Of a stretch of DNA of 64,000 bases, positions 4,380-16,980 are shown one piece after another. The translations under genes and the position numbers were made by a program. This stretch comes from Pseudorhodoplanes sp. (GTDB lineage: Bacteria > Pseudomonadota > Alphaproteobacteria > Rhizobiales > Xanthobacteraceae), in NCBI GenBank assembly GCA_032027085.1, contig JAVSMS010000001.1, positions 1,566,332-1,630,331 on the forward strand. The letters run 5' to 3'. Numbering within the stretch: the first letter of the stretch is position 1; every line of letters begins with the position of its first letter. Under the pieces are notes generated by a model. The model was given only the letters and a program-made list of their open reading frames with translations. It was not told the origin of the DNA and did no database searches.

Positions 4380-5600
4380 TCAGAAGAACGCCTGAATGCC
4401 TGTCTGCGCGCGGCCGAGGATCAGCGCATGGATGTCATGCGTGCCCTCGTAGGTGTTCACCGTTTCCAGATTCGACATCACGCGCATGACGTGGAATTCG
4501 TCAGCGATGCCGTTGCCGCCGTGCATATCGCGCGCCATGCGCGCGATATCCAGCGCCTTGCCGCAATTGTTGCGCTTGAGCAGCGAGATGGCCGGCGGCG
4601 CAGCGCGTCCCGCTTCCATCAGCCGGCCGAGACGAAGCACGCTGTGCAGGCCGAGCGTGATTTCGGTCTGCATGTCGGCGAGCTTCTTTTGGACGAGCTG
4701 GTTGGCGGCGAGCGGACGGCCGAACTGCTTGCGGTCGAGCGTGTATTGCCGGGCCCGATGCCAGCAGAATTCGGCGGCGCCGATCACGCCCCAGGCGATG
4801 CCATAGCGGGCATTGTTGAGGCAGCCGAAGGGACCGGCGAGGCCCGAGGCATTCGGCAAGATATTCTCTTCCGGCACCACCGCGCCGTCGAGCACGATTT
4901 CACCGGTGATCGAGGCGCGCAATGACAGCTTGCCTTCGATCTTCGGCGTCTCGAATCCTTTCGTGCCGCGTTCGACAATGAAGCCGCGGATCTTGCCGTC
5001 GAGCTTCGCCCAGACCACCGCGATGTCGGCGATCGGCGAATTCGAGATCCACATCTTGTTGCCGGTCAGTTTGTAGCCGCCCGCAACCTTCTCGGCGCGC
5101 GTCGCCATCGAGCCGGGATCGGAACCGTGGTCGGGCTCGGTCAGGCCGAAGCAGCCGATCATCTCACCCGAGGCGAGCTTGGGCAGGTATTTCTTGCGCT
5201 GCGCCTCGCTGCCATAGGCATAGATCGGATACATCACGAGCGAGGACTGCACCGACAGCGTCGAGCGATAGCCGGAATCGACCGCTTCGATTTCGCGCGC
5301 GATCAGGCCATAGGCGACATAGCCGAGACCGGCGCCGCCATACTCTTCCGGGATGGTCGGGCCGAGCAGACCGAGGCTGCCCATCTCCTTCATCAGGCCG
5401 GGTTCGGTTGTCTCATTGCGATAGGCTTCGAGGATGCGGGGAAACAGCCTGTCCTGCGCATAGCCGCGCGCAGTGTCGCGCACCATGCGCTCCTCTTCGG
5501 ACAGTTCGCTCTCCAGATCGAGCGGATCCTCCCAATTGAACGGAGCGTCCTTGATCGAACCGGGGCGCTTGGTGGTAATTTTTTCGGCGGGCTGACTCAT
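4380..5600 (-). CDS. gcdH: Glutaryl-CoA dehydrogenase
   Basis: This 406-residue acyl-CoA dehydrogenase oxidises and decarboxylates glutaryl-CoA to crotonyl-CoA, using FAD and an electron-transfer flavoprotein, in lysine, tryptophan and benzoate breakdown. The N-terminal [22 protein letters not shown] is characteristic of the glutaryl branch. So is the C-terminal [19 protein letters not shown], with the catalytic base at about Glu385. The FAD and substrate loop [16 protein letters not shown] is intact. The length is normal for the family. It is a single gene facing the hydrolase convergently; no CoA-transferase or regulator lies next to it. Confidence 0.93.
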
Positions 5601-5798
5601 CGTTTTTCCCAGATTGCGAGGTGTGCCTGCAAAGGCGGCATTGGATACCCTGGCCCCACACTACCCCGCCACGGATCGGGCGGAAAGCGCGCCTAAAGTG
5701 ACCGGGTGGCGCCGTTCTACTAACATTCTGTTGGGAATCGACAGGATAAAGTCAAAAATGGCCGCTTCCCGGGAAGTATAATTTTGGGCGTATTTGCG

Positions 5799-7088
5799 AT
5801 GTTTGACCGCTTTTCTGGCCCTGACGCGCGGGGTTGCGCGAGCCTGGCCTTCATTGCCGGTATCATGGCAGCGACGCTCGCGGTGGAACCCGCCGACGCC
5901 CAGAGCCGCCACCGTCCAAACCCCACCGAAAGAGCAAGAAAACAGAAGGTTCCGCCACCGCCGCCGGGGCCGCATCTGTTTATCGTCTCGCTCAAGGCCC
6001 AGCGCGGCGCGCTCTATGCGAATGGCCAGTTGGTCGCGCATACGCCGATTTCGTCCGGCACCGCCAGTCATCCGACGCCGACCGGCGTGTTCAGCGTCAT
6101 CCAGAAGAACCGGCATCACCGCTCCAATATCTATAGCGGTGCGCCGATGCCGTACATGCAGCGTCTGACCTGGTCCGGCATCGCGCTGCATCAGGGTCAA
6201 TTGCCCGGCTATCCGGCTTCGCACGGCTGCATCCGGCTGCCCGGCGATTTTGCGCAATTCCTGTGGCGCACGACCAAACTCGGCGCGCGCGTGATCGTCA
6301 CCCATGACGAGATTGAGCCTGCGGCCATTTCGCATGCGAAGCTTTTTCAGCCGAAGCAGCGCGTCGATGTCGGCGACGCCAGCAACCTGCGCCGCTCGAT
6401 TGAAACGGACGTCGCCGCCAACGTGGCGACGCCCACCGCGACCGACGCATCCTCAACTGAAGGGGCGGAATCCGAGCCCGAGATTGCGAAGTCCCGCGAA
6501 CCCGTCACCGACATATCGGCGGCCGCACAGAACGACATCCCGGCGTCCATCCTGGCAAGCTTCTTTGACACGCTGGACGCGAAGGCGAAGAAGCCGGCCC
6601 CGGCCGGACCCATTTCCATTTTCATTAGCCGCAAGGAAAAGCAGCTCTATGTGCGGCAGGGATTTCACGCGCTGTTCAATGTGCCGGTCAGCTTCCGTAG
6701 TGAAAATGCGCCGATCGGGACGCACGTCTTCACGGCGCTGGAGAGAACAGACGGCACCAGCGGGCTGCGCTGGATCGCGATGAGCATGCCCGGCAATACG
6801 CCGAAGGTGGAACACAGGATCGCCGGGGACGAATACAAGATCGTCTACCGCTATGACGATTTCGGCCGCCGCATTCGCGTGAAGCGAAAGGTCGCCGCAG
6901 CCGCAAAGCCTGTTGAAGCTCAGGCCGGGCCCGCCGCCTCCGACGTCCTTGAACGCATCGACGTGCCGCAAGACGTGGTCGACCGCGTCTCCGAATATGT
7001 CACGGCGGGCGCGACCCTGATCGTGTCGGATCAGGGGCTGGGTCCGGAAACCGGCGCCTATACCGATTTCATCGTGCTGACACGCTGA
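5799..7088 (+). CDS. Secreted L,D-transpeptidase (YkuD) with a second C-terminal YkuD-like region
   Basis: The 429-residue protein has a signal peptide (cleavage near ADA-Q at residue 34), a proline-rich spacer, and a YkuD domain from about residue 60 to 165. The active site SHGCIR is at residues 141-146, with nucleophile Cys144. It would form L,D cross-links in peptidoglycan or attach proteins to it. After a low-complexity stretch, residues about 265-330 again look like the start of a YkuD fold (IFISRKEKQLYVRQG, then SENAPIGTHVF), but no SHGC motif follows, so the second copy is probably inactive. A TTG at 5784 could add five residues; I prefer the ATG because it starts the signal peptide. 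Confidence 0.85.
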   Translation: MFDRFSGPDARGCASLAFIAGIMAATLAVEPADAQSRHRPNPTERARKQKVPPPPPGPHLFIVSLKAQRGALYANGQLVAHTPISSGTASHPTPTGVFSVIQKNRHHRSNIYSGAPMPYMQRLTWSGIALHQGQLPGYPASHGCIRLPGDFAQFLWRTTKLGARVIVTHDEIEPAAISHAKLFQPKQRVDVGDASNLRRSIETDVAANVATPTATDASSTEGAESEPEIAKSREPVTDISAAAQNDIPASILASFFDTLDAKAKKPAPAGPISIFISRKEKQLYVRQGFHALFNVPVSFRSENAPIGTHVFTALERTDGTSGLRWIAMSMPGNTPKVEHRIAGDEYKIVYRYDDFGRRIRVKRKVAAAAKPVEAQAGPAASDVLERIDVPQDVVDRVSEYVTAGATLIVSDQGLGPETGAYTDFIVLTR

Positions 7089-8253: not shown

Positions 8254-8706
8254 TCAGCTGCTCCGCGCTTCCCAGCGCGGCGTCCTGATCTCGCCGCGCG
8301 TCGTGGCAATCCCGAGTTCGAGGCTGTCGGCAATGCGGTGCGCGCGTTCGATAAAATGCGCGGCGGCTTTCGGCGGACAGATCGCCCTGGCCGTCGTTTC
8401 GAACAGCGCCAGCCAGCGCTCGAAATGCTCGTTTCCGACCGGCAGCGACATGTGCGCCTGCATGGGGCGGCCGTGATAGCGGCCCGTCATCAGCATCACC
8501 GACGACCAGAAGGCGCATAGTTTCTCAAGGTGAAGGTCCCAATCCTCCACCTTTTCCTCGAAGATCGGACCGATCAGCGGATCCTGGCGCACGCCCGCGT
8601 AAAACGCCCTCACCAGCGCGGCGATCATCGGCTCGTCGATGCCCGTGCGCTCTTTCAGGTCCTGGATGAGGCGATTCCGCCTCTCCTCGCTCTCATCCGA
8701 CCCCAT
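8254..8706 (-). CDS. Group III truncated hemoglobin
   Basis: This 150-residue protein is a group III (P-type) truncated hemoglobin. It has Tyr36 of the B helix (AFYAGVRQDPLIGPIF), the FWSSVMLMTGRYHGRP core, and proximal heme ligand His85 in the motif YHGRPMQAHMSL. Group III members such as Campylobacter Ctb are tied to nitric oxide and oxygen responses. Here the gene is divergent from a cluster that ends in an NsrR-like repressor, which supports a nitric oxide role. That role is inference from context. It acts in the cytoplasm. AT-rich dyads lie immediately upstream of its start. Confidence 0.88.
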   Translation of the reverse strand: MGSDESEERRNRLIQDLKERTGIDEPMIAALVRAFYAGVRQDPLIGPIFEEKVEDWDLHLEKLCAFWSSVMLMTGRYHGRPMQAHMSLPVGNEHFERWLALFETTARAICPPKAAAHFIERAHRIADSLELGIATTRGEIRTPRWEARSS

Positions 8707-8719
8707 GCATGGCTCCCAG

Positions 8720-8748
8720 AAGATATATTTTGCATATTGCTTTTATGC
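8720..8748. promoter_or_regulatory. AT-rich dyads between divergent genes, candidate operator
   Basis: This AT-rich stretch stands out in GC-rich DNA, between the truncated hemoglobin start (8706) and the small membrane protein start (8797). It contains AAGATATATTT, close to an NsrR half-site, and an inverted repeat GCATA (8732-8736) / TATGC (8744-8748) with a 7-base spacer. With an NsrR-like gene in the same cluster it is a reasonable operator candidate. The match to a full NsrR palindrome is poor. Confidence 0.35.
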
Positions 8749-8796
8749 GATGCCGGCTTATTGTCAATCGTGGATTTCCTCATATGGGAGATATCG

Positions 8797-8973
8797 ATGG
8801 GCCAGCTATCCTCCGCCGCCAATGCGGTGACGTACCTCCTCCTCCTGCCCGGCGACCTGATCTGCAACGCCGTCGGCGTCGGCACGGCGAATAATCGCGA
8901 CCTGCTTCGGATGCTGGTCAATTCGTTCGCATGGGCCTTCGTCGGCGCATTGGTCGTCATCGCCGTGGTCTGA
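8797..8973 (+). CDS. 58-residue single-pass membrane protein
   Basis: This small gene encodes 58 residues with a hydrophobic N-terminal half (AVTYLLLLPGDLICNAVGVG) and a clear C-terminal membrane segment (FAWAFVGALVVIAVV). The ATG at 8797 follows GGGAG at 8786-8790 with six bases of spacing, so translation is credible. Longer in-frame extensions upstream overlap the hemoglobin and lack a ribosome site. I do not recognise the family. It heads a row with the PAS protein and the NsrR-like regulator (gaps 50 and 41 bases) and diverges from the truncated hemoglobin, so a role in nitric oxide or oxygen response is the best guess. Confidence 0.65.
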   Translation: MGQLSSAANAVTYLLLLPGDLICNAVGVGTANNRDLLRMLVNSFAWAFVGALVVIAVV

Positions 8974-9023
8974 CCGCGGCGTCAGGCGCGCAGGTTGCAG
9001 TGGTGCGGCGAGGAGACGGGACG

Positions 9024-9467
9024 ATGTCCGAGACCATCGTTGACTGGCAGAACTGCTTTGCGTCGGCGCTGCTCAACAGCAGGGCCGATGCGATGCTGCT
9101 TTGCGATGGCGAGGGCATCATCCGCTGCTGGACGCCGGGCGCCGAACGGCTGTTCGGATATACCGAGACGGAAGCCGTCGGCCGGTCGCTCGACATCATC
9201 ATCCCGGAGCGGCTGCGCGCGCGCCATTGGGCCGGCTATCGCGAGGTGATGAACGGCGCGCCGAGCCGCTACGGCGACGGCGAGGTGCTCGCCGTTCCCG
9301 GCCTGCGCAAGGACGGATCTCAGTTGTCCATCGAATTCACCATCACGCCGGCCACCGACCCGCAAAACCGGCTGGTCGGGCTTGCCGCCGTCATTCGCGA
9401 CGTGACCGCCCGCTTCGAGGAGCTGAAAGCGTTGCGCAAGCAGCTCCGGACGGCGGCGCCGACCTGA
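9024..9467 (+). CDS. Single-domain PAS protein with a FixL-like histidine
   Basis: The 147-residue protein is one PAS domain (about residues 12-130) with a short helical tail and no kinase, GGDEF or HTH part. The PAS core is typical: AMLLCDGEGIIRCW, ERLFGYTETEAVG, LRKDGSQLSIEF, VIRDVTARF. His68 in RARHWAGY sits where FixL has its heme-ligand histidine (R-x-RH-x-x-Y), so heme binding is possible but unproven; the FixL arginine of the FG loop is not conserved here. The ATG at 9024 follows AGGAGA. It lies between the small membrane gene and nsrR, which suggests a gas or redox sensing partner. Confidence 0.78.
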   Translation: MSETIVDWQNCFASALLNSRADAMLLCDGEGIIRCWTPGAERLFGYTETEAVGRSLDIIIPERLRARHWAGYREVMNGAPSRYGDGEVLAVPGLRKDGSQLSIEFTITPATDPQNRLVGLAAVIRDVTARFEELKALRKQLRTAAPT

Positions 9468-9508
9468 CCGGCGATGATCGCCCCACGCATTCACACAACG
9501 GATCCGAC

Positions 9509-9973
9509 ATGCGCCTGACCATGCTTTCCGACTACGCCCTGCGCGTCCTGCTCTATGCGGCGGCCAACCCCAACCGTCTCATCACCATCGAGGAAACCGC
9601 GAGCGTGTACAGGGTCTCCCGCGCGCATCTGATGAAGGTGGTCAATGTCCTGACCCGCGGCGGCTTTCTCAAAGCGGTGCGCGGCCGCGCCGGCGGCTTC
9701 ACCCTGGCGAGATCCCCGGGCGCCATCAATATCGGCGCCGTCATGCGCCTGACCGAGCCGGACTTTGCGCTCGTGGAATGCTTCGCCACCGGCAATCAAT
9801 GCATCGTCACCGGCTGCTGCAAACTCCCGACGATCCTCAACGAGGCGCTCAACAATTTCGTCCTCACCCTCGACCGCTACACGCTCGCCGATCTGATGCT
9901 GACGAAAGCCGATTTCGCCCCGCCAAAAAAAATGAATCAGAAGACGCGCGGGCCGACATTTGCCGCGTCATGA
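9509..9973 (+). CDS. nsrR: NsrR-like Rrf2-family transcriptional regulator
   Basis: The 154-residue Rrf2 protein has a winged helix at residues 1-65 starting MRLTMLSDYALRVLLYAA. It carries the cluster-binding cysteines Cys91, Cys98 and Cys103 in a pattern close to NsrR (C-x6-C-x4-C), followed by the NsrR-like dimer helix ending DRYTLADLM. NsrR binds an iron-sulphur cluster and releases DNA on reaction with nitric oxide. Likely targets are the adjoining truncated hemoglobin and itself. The start at 9509 gives the standard family N-terminus; longer in-frame extensions would read through the PAS gene. Confidence 0.82.
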   Translation: MRLTMLSDYALRVLLYAAANPNRLITIEETASVYRVSRAHLMKVVNVLTRGGFLKAVRGRAGGFTLARSPGAINIGAVMRLTEPDFALVECFATGNQCIVTGCCKLPTILNEALNNFVLTLDRYTLADLMLTKADFAPPKKMNQKTRGPTFAAS

Positions 9974-10544: not shown

Positions 10545-10621
10545 GCACCCGTAGCTCAGCTGGATAGAGCGTTGCCCTCCGAAGGCAAAGGTCACAGGTT
10601 CGAATCCTGTCGGGTGCGCCA
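10545..10621 (+). tRNA. tRNA-Arg, anticodon CCG
   Basis: The gene folds as a full cloverleaf. Acceptor arm GCACCCG pairs with CGGGTGC, the D arm is GCTCAGCTGGATAGAGC, the anticodon loop is CTCCGAA with anticodon CCG, and the T arm holds GGTTCGAATCC. The discriminator is G and CCA is encoded. It reads CGG arginine codons. tRNA-Arg genes are frequent integration sites, but no integrase or duplicated 3' end was seen here. Confidence 0.97.
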
Positions 10622-11859: not shown

Positions 11860-13215
11860 CTAACTTTCCCTGAAAGCGCGATTCACGCGCAGCAACACAG
11901 GCTGCAACAGATATTCAGCAAAGGTTCTCTCCCCCGTTTCGATGAAAGCTTCCACCGGCATTCCCGGCTGCAACGACGACAGGTAAGGCTGAACATCGGC
12001 CGTCGGTTGCAGCTCAATTTCTGCGAGATATGAGGCAACCCCGGTCTTCGGATCGATCAGCGCGTCAGCCGATACCGACGTGACGGTACCGGGCATGATC
12101 GGCGTGCGCCGGATGTTGAACGCAAGAATGCGAATGCGGGCCGATTGCCCGACATAAACCTCGTTGCGATCCGATGGCCGCAATGTCGCTTCGATGATCA
12201 GCCGGTCTCGCGCGGGCACGACCTCAAGCAGGGTCTCGCGCGGGCCCAGCACAGCATTGAGGTGCCTGGTGTTGAGGCCGACCACGACGCCGCGCTCCGG
12301 CGCGCGCAAGTCGCTGCGCGCAATCTGGTCGCGCAAGGCGGAAACCCGGTGCCGCACGTCCGCGATCTCCTCGCTTGTCGCGTGGCGCTGCTTGGCGATT
12401 TCCTGGCTCCGGTTGTAAGTCAGTTGCCGCCGACGGTCTTCCAGTTCCGCGATTTTTCCGTGCGCTTCCGCGTTTGCGGCGGCATTGCGCGCGATCTGGC
12501 CTTCCGCTTCGGCTTCGGCGCGCCTCAACGCGAGGACCTTCGGCTTTCGCGCAAGCCCCCGGGCCATCAGATAATCGCCGTCCCTGATTTCCTCCTGAAG
12601 CGCCGCAAGCTGTTGCTCCAGCGCCTTGCTGCTGCTTTCCAGGCCCCTGATCGTGTGTTGCAATTGAAATATTTGTTGATCGAGAAGCCTGCTCTCGCCT
12701 TCGAGCGAAGCCGCGCGTGCAACGAATTCAGCTTCCTGGGTGCGCATGGCCAGCTTCGCCTCCTGCCGCGTCGTATTCAGAAGCTCGTCCGGGAAGGCAA
12801 TTTTTGTCGCACCGGTTTGTTCCGCAATGAGGCGCGCTTCCGTCGCCAGATCGGCAAACAACTTTGTCTCAAGGACGCCGAGACTCGCCTCGATCTGGGT
12901 GGTGTTCAGTCGGGCCAGAACCTGTCCGGCTTCGACGAGATCGCCTTCACGAACGAAGATCGATTTGACGATGCCGCCTTCAAAATGCTGAACCGCCTTG
13001 CGTTTCGACATGACCTTGACCACGCCCGGCGCGATGACGGCGCTGCGCAGCGGCACCGTACCGGCCCACACGCCAACAGCGCCAAGGTTCAGAATGAGTA
13101 ACACGCTCCCCCAAAGGATGAGCCGGCGCATCTCCGATCTCGGTCTTTCGGAGGAAGCATCCTGAGGCCGGATCACTGCCGGCAGTTGCCGGATTGCAAC
13201 AAGCGGATTCTTCAT
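11860..13215 (-). CDS. Type I secretion periplasmic adaptor, HlyD/PrtE family
   Basis: The 451-residue membrane fusion protein has one N-terminal membrane segment (LILWGSVLLILNLGAVGVWAG, about residues 31-50). A lipoyl half-motif VQHFEGGIVKSIFVREGDLVEAGQVLARL follows. A long coiled coil lies between about residues 150 and 300, and the C-terminal beta-barrel begins RDQIARSDLRAPERGVVVGL. It would link the ABC exporter to an outer-membrane TolC-type channel, which is not in this window. Its ATG overlaps the TGA of the ABC gene by one base, showing translational coupling. The open frame extends upstream but only inside the ABC gene. Confidence 0.9.
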   Translation of the reverse strand: MKNPLVAIRQLPAVIRPQDASSERPRSEMRRLILWGSVLLILNLGAVGVWAGTVPLRSAVIAPGVVKVMSKRKAVQHFEGGIVKSIFVREGDLVEAGQVLARLNTTQIEASLGVLETKLFADLATEARLIAEQTGATKIAFPDELLNTTRQEAKLAMRTQEAEFVARAASLEGESRLLDQQIFQLQHTIRGLESSSKALEQQLAALQEEIRDGDYLMARGLARKPKVLALRRAEAEAEGQIARNAAANAEAHGKIAELEDRRRQLTYNRSQEIAKQRHATSEEIADVRHRVSALRDQIARSDLRAPERGVVVGLNTRHLNAVLGPRETLLEVVPARDRLIIEATLRPSDRNEVYVGQSARIRILAFNIRRTPIMPGTVTSVSADALIDPKTGVASYLAEIELQPTADVQPYLSSLQPGMPVEAFIETGERTFAEYLLQPVLLRVNRAFRES

Positions 13216-14993
13216 CAACGGCCTCCTGCTGTCGGCAATCGCAGCGGCTCGGTCCGCGCGGGGGCTTGCGGGCGTTGCAGCGGCGTGGCGCCCTTGATGG
13301 TCTGCGGTAGCACGCCGGAGGGCGGACCAAACGCGATCTGCTTTCCGTCGCGCAGGAACAACACCGAATCGGCAATGGTCAGAAGGCGGGGCCGATGCGT
13401 GACGATCACGAATGTCGCCCCCCGTTGCTGCGCCGCTCGCACCGCCGCGCACAAGGCTTCCTCGCCTTCGGGATCGAGATTGGAATTGGGCTCGTCAAGC
13501 AGCATCAGCGTCCGCTGGCCGTAAAAGGCACGCGCAAGGCCGATGCGCTGACGCTGGCCGCCGGATAATCGGCCGCCGTCCCGGCCGATCTCGGTCTGAT
13601 AGGCCTGCGGCAAGGACAGGATCATCTCGTGCGCATTGGCGAGCATGGCTGCGGCGACGATATCCTCATCGCGCGCCTGATCGTCGAAACCGGCAATGGC
13701 TTCCGCAACCGTTCCACCCAGGAGCTCGACATCCTGCGGCAGATAGCCGACGAACTGGCCGAACAGGTTGGGATCCCAGTTGTCGAGCGACGCGCCGTCC
13801 AGCCGGACTGTGCCGGCGGTCGGCTGTTCCAATGCCGCGAGCATGCGCAGCAGCGTGGATTTGCCGGCGCCGGTCGGTCCGATCACGACAACAATCTCTC
13901 CGGGCCTGCTGGCAAAGGAAATGCCCTGCAGGACGGGCCGTTTCGCGCCGGGCACCTGATAGGTCACACGCGAGACCTCGAGCGCGCCGGTCGGAGCCGG
14001 CAGGCGCGTGTGCCGCCTGCGCAAGCTGCTGGCCGCAAGAACCGCGCCGACATGCGCCCATGCATCCTGCGCCGAGGTCAGCGCGCGCCAGGCCGACAGG
14101 AGACTCTCGACCGGCTGCAACGTCCGGCTGATCAATATCGAGCCCGCGATCATACCGCCGGGCAGGAGTTCGTTCTGCAGCACAAGCCACGCCCCCAATC
14201 CTATGGCGGCGATTTGCAGGATCATCCGCAGCGCCCGCGCGATGGCGGCGATGGCGGCGACCTGCTCGGTGGCCCGCACGACAGGGGCGAGCGCCGCATC
14301 GTTGATGCGCAGGAATTCGCGAATGGCGCCCCGGCTCCAGCCCATGGCCCGCACCAGACGGGCGTGCTTGACGATGCTGTCCAGCAGCGATTGCGTGCGA
14401 AGGGCCGCGCCCGACGCCTGGGCAACTTCGGCGCGGGAAATGCCGGCACTCAGGAATGCGAGCGCCAGCAGGATCGCCGATCCGATCAGCGTCAGCACGC
14501 CGAACCAGGGATGGATGAGATAGAGGATCAGCAGAAACGCGGGAAGGAACGGCGCGTCGAGCAATGTCGAAACCATGCCGCTCGACAGGAAATTTCTCAG
14601 TTCGCGCACCCGCACAAGGTCCTGCGGACCCGCCTCATCGGCGCCTGACCGGAAGATCGACGCTTCCAGGACTCTCGGCGCAACATAATGTTCGAAAGTG
14701 ACGGCGAAGCGCGTCAGGATTCGTCCGCGGATCGCATCGAAAGCCGCGCTGAAGGCCAGTGCGACGACGGCAATCGCCGTCAGTCCCACCAGCGTTTCCA
14801 CGCTGCCGCTGGTGATCACCCGGTCAAAGACCTGAATGCAGTAAAACGGCAGGACCAGCAGAAGCGCGTTGGTCGCGAGGCTGAAGACAATCGCCCACAG
14901 CAAAGCCTCGCGCGCCGGAATCATCGCATACAGCGACTTTCCCTTCGCCGCAGGCATTCGCTGACGCATAACGGAACGCATACTCTGTACCAA
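13215..14993 (-). CDS. Type I secretion ABC exporter, permease fused to ATPase (PrtD/AprD type)
   Basis: The 592-residue protein has an N-terminal membrane domain (about residues 25-300) and a C-terminal ATPase. Walker A is GPTGAGKS at 372-379, the signature is LSGGQ at 476-480, and Walker B is LMLLDE at 496-501. There is no C39 peptidase domain before the membrane part, as expected for exporters of RTX proteins with a C-terminal uncleaved signal. It works with the adaptor gene that overlaps its stop and most likely exports the RTX protein encoded just upstream. A GC-rich hairpin separates it from that cargo gene. Confidence 0.92.
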   Translation of the reverse strand: MVQSMRSVMRQRMPAAKGKSLYAMIPAREALLWAIVFSLATNALLLVLPFYCIQVFDRVITSGSVETLVGLTAIAVVALAFSAAFDAIRGRILTRFAVTFEHYVAPRVLEASIFRSGADEAGPQDLVRVRELRNFLSSGMVSTLLDAPFLPAFLLILYLIHPWFGVLTLIGSAILLALAFLSAGISRAEVAQASGAALRTQSLLDSIVKHARLVRAMGWSRGAIREFLRINDAALAPVVRATEQVAAIAAIARALRMILQIAAIGLGAWLVLQNELLPGGMIAGSILISRTLQPVESLLSAWRALTSAQDAWAHVGAVLAASSLRRRHTRLPAPTGALEVSRVTYQVPGAKRPVLQGISFASRPGEIVVVIGPTGAGKSTLLRMLAALEQPTAGTVRLDGASLDNWDPNLFGQFVGYLPQDVELLGGTVAEAIAGFDDQARDEDIVAAAMLANAHEMILSLPQAYQTEIGRDGGRLSGGQRQRIGLARAFYGQRTLMLLDEPNSNLDPEGEEALCAAVRAAQQRGATFVIVTHRPRLLTIADSVLFLRDGKQIAFGPPSGVLPQTIKGATPLQRPQAPARTEPLRLPTAGGR

Positions 14994-15046
14994 TCCGCCT
15001 GCTGATGCGTCGAATGTCTTAGCGCAGCATAGAGACAGAACTAAGG

Positions 15047-15074
15047 TCGGGCGGCGGCCTCAGCCGCCGCCCGA
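15047..15074 (-). terminator. GC-rich hairpin between the RTX gene and its exporter
   Basis: Perfect 12-base arms TCGGGCGGCGGC (15047-15058) and complement (15063-15074) with a 4-base loop lie 10 bases after the RTX stop codon on the minus strand. There is no long T-run, so it is more likely a partial terminator or an mRNA 3'-end stabiliser than a complete stop. Placed between cargo and exporter, it could let the cargo be made in excess. Confidence 0.6.
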
Positions 15075-15084
15075 TAAAAGTTGC

Positions 15085-16980
15085 TTATACCAAGGCGACC
15101 GCATCATACCCGGCCGCGGTATTGATGTCCTCGATCGACTCAAACGCCGTTCCGCCTCCGGTGACACCGTCGAGGGTGATGGTGCCAAAACCGAAATCGA
15201 GCGTTGTATCGACTCCGTTGTCATCCACGACAACGGTTTCGGGATCGAAGCCGTCGACAACGTCAACTTCGACCACGTCAAAGTCGGCAAAGCTCAGGTC
15301 CTCGATCTCGTCGTCGCCGAAGTCGCCGCCGGCGCCGTCACCGACATGGTGCGTATCCTGTCCGGCACCGCCGGCCGATACGTCGTCGCCGGCCTCTCCA
15401 TAGAGATGATCGTCGCCGTCGCCGCCGTCGAGCGTATCGTCGCCGTCGCCGCCGTGGATCTCGTCGTCGCCGGCGCCGCCGCTCAACTCATCGTCACCGG
15501 CATCACCCCACAGGCTGTCGGCACCGTCGCCGCCATCAATCGTGTCATCGCCGTCGCCGCCGGACACGAAGTCGGCACCGTTGCCGCCGTTGATGGTGTC
15601 GTCACCGGCATCACCCCACAGGCTGTCGGCACCGTCGCCGCCATCAATCGTGTCAGCGCCATCGCCGCCGAACGCAACGTCGGCACCGTTGCCGCCGTTG
15701 ATGGTGTCGTCGCCATTATCACCGAACAGCAGGTCCGCACCGTTGCCGCCATTGAGCTCGTCGGCGCCCTCACCGCCACTGAGCACGTCGGCCCCTGCAT
15801 CGCCATTGAGGACGTCATTGCCGTCCCAACCGTTCAGGGTGTCATTTCCGGCACCGCCGCTCAGCGTGTCGTCGCCGTCGTCGCCGTTCAGCGTGTCGTC
15901 GCCGCCGTTGCCTTCCATATAGTCGTTGCCGGCGCCGCCATTCAGCAGATCCGTACCGCCGCCACCAAACATCGTGTCGTCGCCGTCATCGCCGTTCAGC
16001 GTATCGGCACCGCCATTGCCTTCCATCCAGTCGTTGCCGGCGCCGCCATTGAGCAGATCGAGGCCAGCGCCACCGCTCATGGTGTCATCGCCGTCATCAC
16101 CGTTCAGCGTGTCGTCGCCGCCATTGCCTTCCATGAAGTCGTTGCCGGCGCCGCCATTCAGCGTATCGTTGCCGGCATTGCCGCTCATGGTGTCGTCGCC
16201 GTCATCACCGTTCAGCGTGTCGTCGCCGCCATTACCTTCCATGAGGTCGTTGCCGTCGCCGCCATTGAGCAGGTCGAGGCCGGCGCCACCGCTCATGGTG
16301 TCATCGCCGTCGCCGCCGTTCAGCGTGTCATCGCCACCATTGCCTTCCAGGGTGTCGTTGCCGCCGTTGCCGTCGATTGTATCGTTTCCGGCGCCGCCGC
16401 TCACGAAGTCATCATCGAGGCCGCCGGCCAATGCGTCATTGCCGGCTTGCCCGTTGATGGTGTCGAGGCCCGCACCGCCGCTCAGCGAGTCGTCGCCGTC
16501 GCCGCCATTGATCGTGTCGTCGCCGGCGCCGCCATCGGCTGTATCGTTGTCGGCACCGCCGTCGATCGCGTCATTGCCGGCCCCTCCTTCCAGCGTGTCA
16601 AGACCGGCGCCACCGTTGATCGTATCGTTGCCGGCATTGCCGGACAGGACGTCGTCGCCGTCCCCGCCATCGATCAGGTCGTCGCCGGCATCGCCGTCGA
16701 CCGTATCGTTGCCTTCGTTGCCGTTCAGTGTATCAAGACCCGCGTTGCCGCGGATGATGTCGTCTCCGTCATTGCCGTTGATGGTGTCGTCTCCGGCATT
16801 GCCGTTGAGCGTATCGTTGCCGGCATTGCCGTCGATGAGATCGTTTCCAGGGCCGCCGTCGACGGTATCGTCTCCGGCATCGGCAGTGACCGTGTCGTTC
16901 CCAGCCAGGCCGCTAATGGAATCAGGATCAGGGGTGCCAACGAGATTATCGTCATTCGGCGTTCCAACGATGACAGCCAT
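15085..16980 (-). CDS. RTX repeat protein, probable type I secreted cargo
   Basis: The 631-residue protein is built almost entirely of nonapeptide repeats of the GGxGxDxLx kind, from about residue 5 to 545. These bind calcium and fold as parallel beta-rolls outside the cell. The last 80-90 residues are non-repetitive and acidic, end in DAVALV, and probably form the C-terminal secretion signal. No enzyme domain is present, so it is more likely a surface or matrix protein than a toxin. The ATG at 16980 follows AGGAG on the minus strand; the first residues MAVIVGTPNDDNL enter the repeats at once. Very low pI is expected from the Asp content. Confidence 0.9.
   Translation of the reverse strand: MAVIVGTPNDDNLVGTPDPDSISGLAGNDTVTADAGDDTVDGGPGNDLIDGNAGNDTLNGNAGDDTINGNDGDDIIRGNAGLDTLNGNEGNDTVDGDAGDDLIDGGDGDDVLSGNAGNDTINGGAGLDTLEGGAGNDAIDGGADNDTADGGAGDDTINGGDGDDSLSGGAGLDTINGQAGNDALAGGLDDDFVSGGAGNDTIDGNGGNDTLEGNGGDDTLNGGDGDDTMSGGAGLDLLNGGDGNDLMEGNGGDDTLNGDDGDDTMSGNAGNDTLNGGAGNDFMEGNGGDDTLNGDDGDDTMSGGAGLDLLNGGAGNDWMEGNGGADTLNGDDGDDTMFGGGGTDLLNGGAGNDYMEGNGGDDTLNGDDGDDTLSGGAGNDTLNGWDGNDVLNGDAGADVLSGGEGADELNGGNGADLLFGDNGDDTINGGNGADVAFGGDGADTIDGGDGADSLWGDAGDDTINGGNGADFVSGGDGDDTIDGGDGADSLWGDAGDDELSGGAGDDEIHGGDGDDTLDGGDGDDHLYGEAGDDVSAGGAGQDTHHVGDGAGGDFGDDEIEDLSFADFDVVEVDVVDGFDPETVVVDDNGVDTTLDFGFGTITLDGVTGGGTAFESIEDINTAAGYDAVALV

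Follow-up and report, generated by a model that had tools for sequence, protein, structure and literature searches.

NsrR regulons are well known. With the NsrR proteins of Streptomyces, E. coli and Bacillus, the regulator described below shares an Rrf2 fold, an Asp8 and three Cys residues, and, by prediction, a palindromic operator and target genes for the detoxification of nitric oxide (NO) (PMC1274295). Yet nsrR was found in only one alphaproteobacterium in a survey from 2005 (PMC1274295). Truncated hemoglobins have no built-in reductase, and ferredoxin-reductase-like electron donors have been proposed for them (PMC3820574). In Legionella, a truncated hemoglobin gene under NsrR control forms an operon with a ferredoxin reductase gene (glbN-ferredoxin reductase), and in Campylobacter, the hemoglobin Ctb is under the control of the CRP/FNR protein NssR (PMC3820574).

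In the window, i.e. the whole stretch of 64,000 nucleotides analysed here, a truncated hemoglobin gene (trHb) diverges from a row of genes for a small membrane protein, a lone PAS protein and an NsrR-like repressor (Table 1). This four-gene arrangement had been claimed in the initial annotation, and all four open reading frames are indeed at their positions. The divergent starts are separated by 90 bp, the membrane protein and PAS genes by 50 bp, and the PAS and nsrR genes by 41 bp. We read the locus as an NO-defence unit under NsrR control, with all four genes as members, and put the probability of this reading at about 0.72. Its core of NsrR and trHb is an already known type of system. It resembles the Legionella glbN operon in having a truncated hemoglobin under NsrR control, which is predicted here, but the co-transcribed partner is a reductase there, and a PAS protein and a membrane protein here. 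What is new is the PAS partner and its reductase fusion.

Table 1. Features of the predicted NO-defence locus (positions in the window)
Feature	Position	Strand	Remarks
trHb, group III (P) truncated hemoglobin	8254..8706	-	Pfam Bac_globin; solved group III relative
Predicted NsrR operator AAGATATATTTTGCATATTGCTT	8720..8742	between divergent transcripts	best site in 64 kb
58-aa membrane protein, PGD..C..GV...R..LR...N motif	8797..8973	+	first gene of nsrR transcript
Lone PAS protein, 147 aa, FixL/DosP-like fold	9024..9467	+	His68 aligned with FixL heme ligand
NsrR-like Rrf2 repressor	9509..9973	+	Asp8 and three Cys aligned to Streptomyces NsrR Fe-S ligands

The trHb is the sole Bac_globin match in the genome (4.3e-06), and its best solved relative is the group III truncated hemoglobin 2ig3 (2.7e-16), with the Tyr, two His and Trp of the heme pocket aligned as expected for group III. 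Campylobacter Ctb is thus similar in its group III sequence and aligned heme pocket, but differs in its control, which is by NssR there and predicted to be by an NsrR-like regulator here. A flavohemoglobin (Hmp) was sought in the own genome and not found, with only partial reductase-like matches. Among 80 named loci with a homologue of the regulator, 33 have a trHb gene less than 2 kb away, and trHb adjoins the NsrR-like gene in all three genus members where the regulator was found, so that the arrangement is not due to chance.

The regulator is an Rrf2 protein (Pfam match, 2.4e-28). In its alignment with Streptomyces NsrR (5n07, 6.1e-14), Asp8 and all three cluster Cys residues are matched, which are the Fe-S ligands given for the Streptomyces protein in PMC5411485. 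The genes that recur next to its homologues are those for trHb, NnrS, NnrU, DUF2249 proteins, pseudoazurin, CRP/FNR regulators and cbb3 genes (names read off the sequences; Pfam scans covered only some of these genes). With the three Cys and Asp8 in place, and with NO-defence genes both as neighbours and as predicted targets, the assignment as an NsrR-like NO repressor is supported, and an NO-dependent release from DNA is predicted. The name NsrR-like reflects the score against the NCBIfam NsrR equivalog NF008240 (116.4 bits), which is under the curated cut-off of 182. The score against the RirA model NF008886 (116.6 bits, cut-off 193) is likewise too low, and the two models do not separate the alternatives. 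This tie is what could be said for a RirA-type iron regulator or an oxidative-stress regulator, in which case the trHb would handle O2 or peroxide instead of NO. We regard this as highly improbable. Candidate identity as RirA was rejected on the grounds of genomic context (neighbours and motif targets are NO genes, norCB included), of the reported absence of RirA from Bradyrhizobiaceae (PMC8822346), and of the Cys-ligand pattern in the genome, where the other Rrf2 proteins lack the Cys ligands, with the exception of one paralogue (in L099, see below).

The predicted operator was compared with that of a sister species. The organism appears to group with Pseudorhodoplanes and Pseudolabrys, and its closest named locus is L014, in the Pseudorhodoplanes MAG G007. 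In the 90-bp gap, the arms AAGATATAT-N5-ATATTGCTT are kept between the two, and the spacers differ; the sister operator reads AAGATATATATAATATATTGCTT, with arms identical to those of the window. Near-palindromes of the form AAGATATATTGNCAATATATCTT with up to 6 mismatches are present in 39 of 81 upstream regions of other nsrR homologues, but in no more than 3 of 81 stretches used as control. From these upstream sites of other species, 25 were taken to train a matrix, leaving out the window and L014; it ranks 8720-8742 first in the 64 kb with a score of 27.8 (runner-up 7.7; top score in 30 Markov-simulated 64-kb sequences 18.0), and also places the gap site of L014 first in that locus (32.0). 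In the own genome, the palindromic motif (the same on both strands) occurs at 12 sites, and the reversed control at none. Among these, the strongest are found between DUF2249/Nfu-like genes, at a further nsrR locus (L099) and ahead of an operon of norC-norB type, whose products match solved structures (NorB with 4xyd, 6.9e-61; NorC with 3o0r, 6.2e-13). Scans for sigma-70 promoters and terminators found none. Known NsrR operators follow the consensus gATGyAT-N5-ATrCATc (PMC1274295), which the predicted operator matches only partially: the alphaproteobacterial form reads AAGATATATTGNCAATATATCTT, compared with which the site at 8720-8742 is a poorer palindrome, and it goes with a protein that scores below the equivalog cut-off. 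The alphaproteobacterial palindrome looks like a class-specific version of the NsrR operator, and the locus thereby supplies a predicted operator for alphaproteobacterial nsrR. That NsrR and trHb are NO partners had been taken as known in the initial annotation; for this locus, the idea is now backed by the cluster-ligand residues, the NO-gene-rich neighbourhoods, the common operator and the other motif sites of the genome.

Two of these other sites deserve a description. The second nsrR locus (L099, G000:C1:1002500-1013500) encodes an NsrR-like paralogue, 67% identical, with two motif sites nearby. Its gene is clustered with those for DUF2249-like, ferredoxin-like and DUF1858-like proteins and for a multi-pass membrane protein that matches no Pfam family. 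In L252 (3487-6293; G000:C1 around 791786), a perfect motif palindrome lies between two uncharacterised operons for Nfu_N/FeS_assembly_P and DUF2249 proteins, which are likely further NsrR targets.

The 58-aa membrane protein has no Pfam or NCBIfam match, and structure prediction gives two helices only, at low confidence. Its orthologue in G007 is 59% identical and occupies the same slot in the trHb-nsrR gap, encoded on the same strand as nsrR. The nucleotide differences between the two genes are distributed 19/9/33 over codon positions 1/2/3, and because of this third-position bias and the conservation, the open reading frame can be taken as a real translated gene. Relatives were found by profile searches in few genomes; a class-wide search added only seven, two of them with unconvincing matches inside long frames. 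Two further genera have a member of the family between these two genes, trHb and nsrR. In L239 and L240, which belong to another order, the homologue is in the same trHb-nsrR gap, but on the trHb strand, and in L238 it stands behind the locus's best motif site (24.8), with no trHb or nsrR nearby. A probable role for the protein is that of a small helper or anchor in the membrane. Further relatives (L094, L095 and L097, around 5600-5970) are located beside CRP-type regulators and YeeE-like or persulfide-dioxygenase-like genes, named from sequence. Since these neighbours include sulfur genes, the family is not tied to NO alone, and it may serve more than one reactive small molecule.

The PAS protein belongs to the Pfam PAS folds (4e-12), and FixL is its nearest NCBIfam equivalog. 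FixL is also its best relative, together with DosP, in a profile search of solved structures (FixL, 4.6e-18), and is ranked first by Foldseek for the AF2 model (pLDDT 75.6). His68 aligns with His200 of FixL, which is a heme ligand (PMC10765370), and is present in every sequence in which the column is filled; around this residue, the confidence of the model is low (blocks of 56-63). The distal Arg220, which holds O2 in FixL, aligns with a Leu (Leu89) that is invariant in the PAS family, in a region where the alignment is approximate. A point against is that the 'RH' motif is widespread among PAS domains. The likeness to FixL and DosP thus consists of the fold and the proximal His, whereas the distal Arg is replaced, and the kinase or phosphodiesterase output is missing. 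The protein, with 147 aa and a PAS domain only, is not a FixL, and it resides in a predicted NO-defence locus. We predict, with moderate confidence, that it binds heme, and the Leu in place of Arg220 might be better suited to NO or redox chemistry than to the sensing of O2. Overall, a heme protein for NO detoxification or sensing is probable.

Is the PAS protein a regular part of the NO response? It is not a constant member of the locus even in close relatives, since the sister locus has trHb, membrane protein and nsrR but no PAS gene; either PAS joined the window copy or it was lost in G007. To place it, the neighbourhoods of relatives with 42-62% identity, which came out of two genome searches, were read. 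In a tree of 71 sequences, 22 members form a clade beside formyl-CoA transferase (frc) genes (support 100/99), 13 form a clade in which PAS is fused to the C-terminus of a reductase (support 99/97), and the remaining bush consists of lone PAS proteins, including that of the window. Outside the frc clade, at least one of nsrR, trHb, hmp and nnrS lies within 5 kb in 17 of 43 loci, and these 17 represent 14 genera; for the frc clade itself, the count is 0 of 22 (Fisher 2.6e-4, a value that overstates independence, as loci of one family are related). This count omits the seed, the loci from the NsrR search (L076, L026) and four distant matches; L026 re-entered independently as L210. Clear gene rows are nsrR-trHb-PAS (L140), trHb-MTHFS-PAS divergent from nsrR (L211), nsrR-trHb-MTHFS-PAS facing nnrS (L210) and hmp-PAS divergent from nsrR (L198). 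Among the fusions, nsrR is followed by reductase-PAS, with hmp divergent, in L160, and is divergent from reductase-PAS in L206 and L135.

The remaining 26 of the 43 loci have no NO gene within 5 kb. Together with the sister locus, they give some weight to the idea that PAS and the membrane protein are hitchhikers, i.e. neighbours of nsrR that take no part in the NO response. The PAS tree adds to this, as it requires about 15 changes of the NO-linked label, barely fewer than with shuffled labels (mean 17.6); the association is therefore scattered over lineages, and the tree does not separate gains from losses. Against hitchhiking, the association is repeated in 14 genera, as fusions or gene rows, and the membrane-protein family holds the same slot in a different order. 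The operator-like sites also argue against it. For 6 of 13 fusions (L135, L147, L148, L160, L205 and L206; L151 is excluded, its best site being below 0), the best site of the locus scores positively and directly precedes the fusion gene, compared with 0 of 20 frc-linked PAS genes. In L140, L143, L198 and L211, the best site lies where the nsrR, trHb or hmp unit begins. We consider hitchhiking unlikely. The membership of the two proteins in the NO response, first argued from close spacing alone, can now be argued from the conservation of gene neighbourhoods that had been proposed as a check, i.e. from the membrane-protein homologues in the trHb-nsrR gap of two further genera and from PAS with nsrR, trHb, hmp or nnrS in many lineages. 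Two uncharacterised protein families would thus be added to the response.

Two side observations concern the PAS relatives. The frc-linked sister clade (L153 5486-5938, L213-L235) often also has oxalyl-CoA decarboxylase nearby, which links it to an oxalate pathway, and keeps the His. In many loci, the PAS gene has as neighbours a LysR regulator and a 5-formyltetrahydrofolate cyclo-ligase-like gene (L150 4284-5135; L211 4369-4905).

The reductase-PAS fusions consist of FAD_binding_6, NAD_binding_1 and a C-terminal PAS domain. Their FAD and NAD domains are of the Hmp type, 45-60% identical to an Hmp, but Hmp has a globin, and the fusions have PAS instead, at the C-terminus. With PAS alone in the window protein and no globin in its fused relatives, neither has the full set of globin, FAD and NAD domains of a flavohemoglobin. 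In the open-access papers searched, we found no description of a reductase-PAS fusion or of a PAS protein in an NsrR locus. Since the reductase in these fused relatives is of the kind that powers flavohemoglobin, the PAS protein may act together with the globin or its reductase, as a redox or gas-binding partner. The main rival reading makes it a sensor of gas or redox state that adjusts regulation, e.g. by binding NsrR, trHb or a kinase, without a part in catalysis or electron transfer; the NO-defence reading would otherwise be unchanged. The closest solved relatives, FixL and DosP, are sensors, and lone PAS proteins usually act through partners. The PAS protein has no output domain, however, and redox chemistry accords better with the clade in which a flavohemoglobin-type NAD(P)H reductase is the fusion partner. 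We give a redox role even odds, and hold the sensor to be a serious but less favoured candidate. A bolder generalization, which we consider doubtful, would make the PAS family a non-globin heme module of NO detoxification, the reductase fusion a "flavo-heme-PAS" NO dioxygenase or reductase, and the window protein its free-standing form beside trHb. The architecture pointed to is a flavohemoglobin-type reductase with a FixL-like PAS in place of the globin, and at stake is whether heme-PAS domains can do chemistry that has so far been ascribed to globins.

From the gene content, the cluster ligands, the predicted operator, the recurrent linkage and the fusion, which are all read from sequence, we infer a model that covers repression, NO response, heme binding by PAS, electron transfer and the role of the membrane protein. 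Without NO, the Rrf2 protein with its Fe-S cluster would occupy 8720-8742 and shut the promoters of trHb and of the membrane protein-PAS-nsrR transcript. As nsrR is inside this transcript, the repressor would also repress itself. NO would damage the Fe-S cluster, so that the repressor leaves and trHb, membrane protein and PAS are produced. The trHb would then remove NO, probably as a dioxygenase or reductase. As the search of the genome turned up no flavohemoglobin, its electrons would come from a separate donor. The PAS protein would most likely bind heme via His68 and serve as an accessory heme protein; in the simplest joint reading, this module would swap electrons or gas ligands with the globin/reductase system, with the membrane protein as probable helper or anchor.

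Just downstream of the NO locus, the window has a tRNA-Arg (ccg) gene at 10545-10621, and further on (11860-15972) genes for an RTX-like repeat protein and for type I secretion-like ABC and membrane-fusion proteins.
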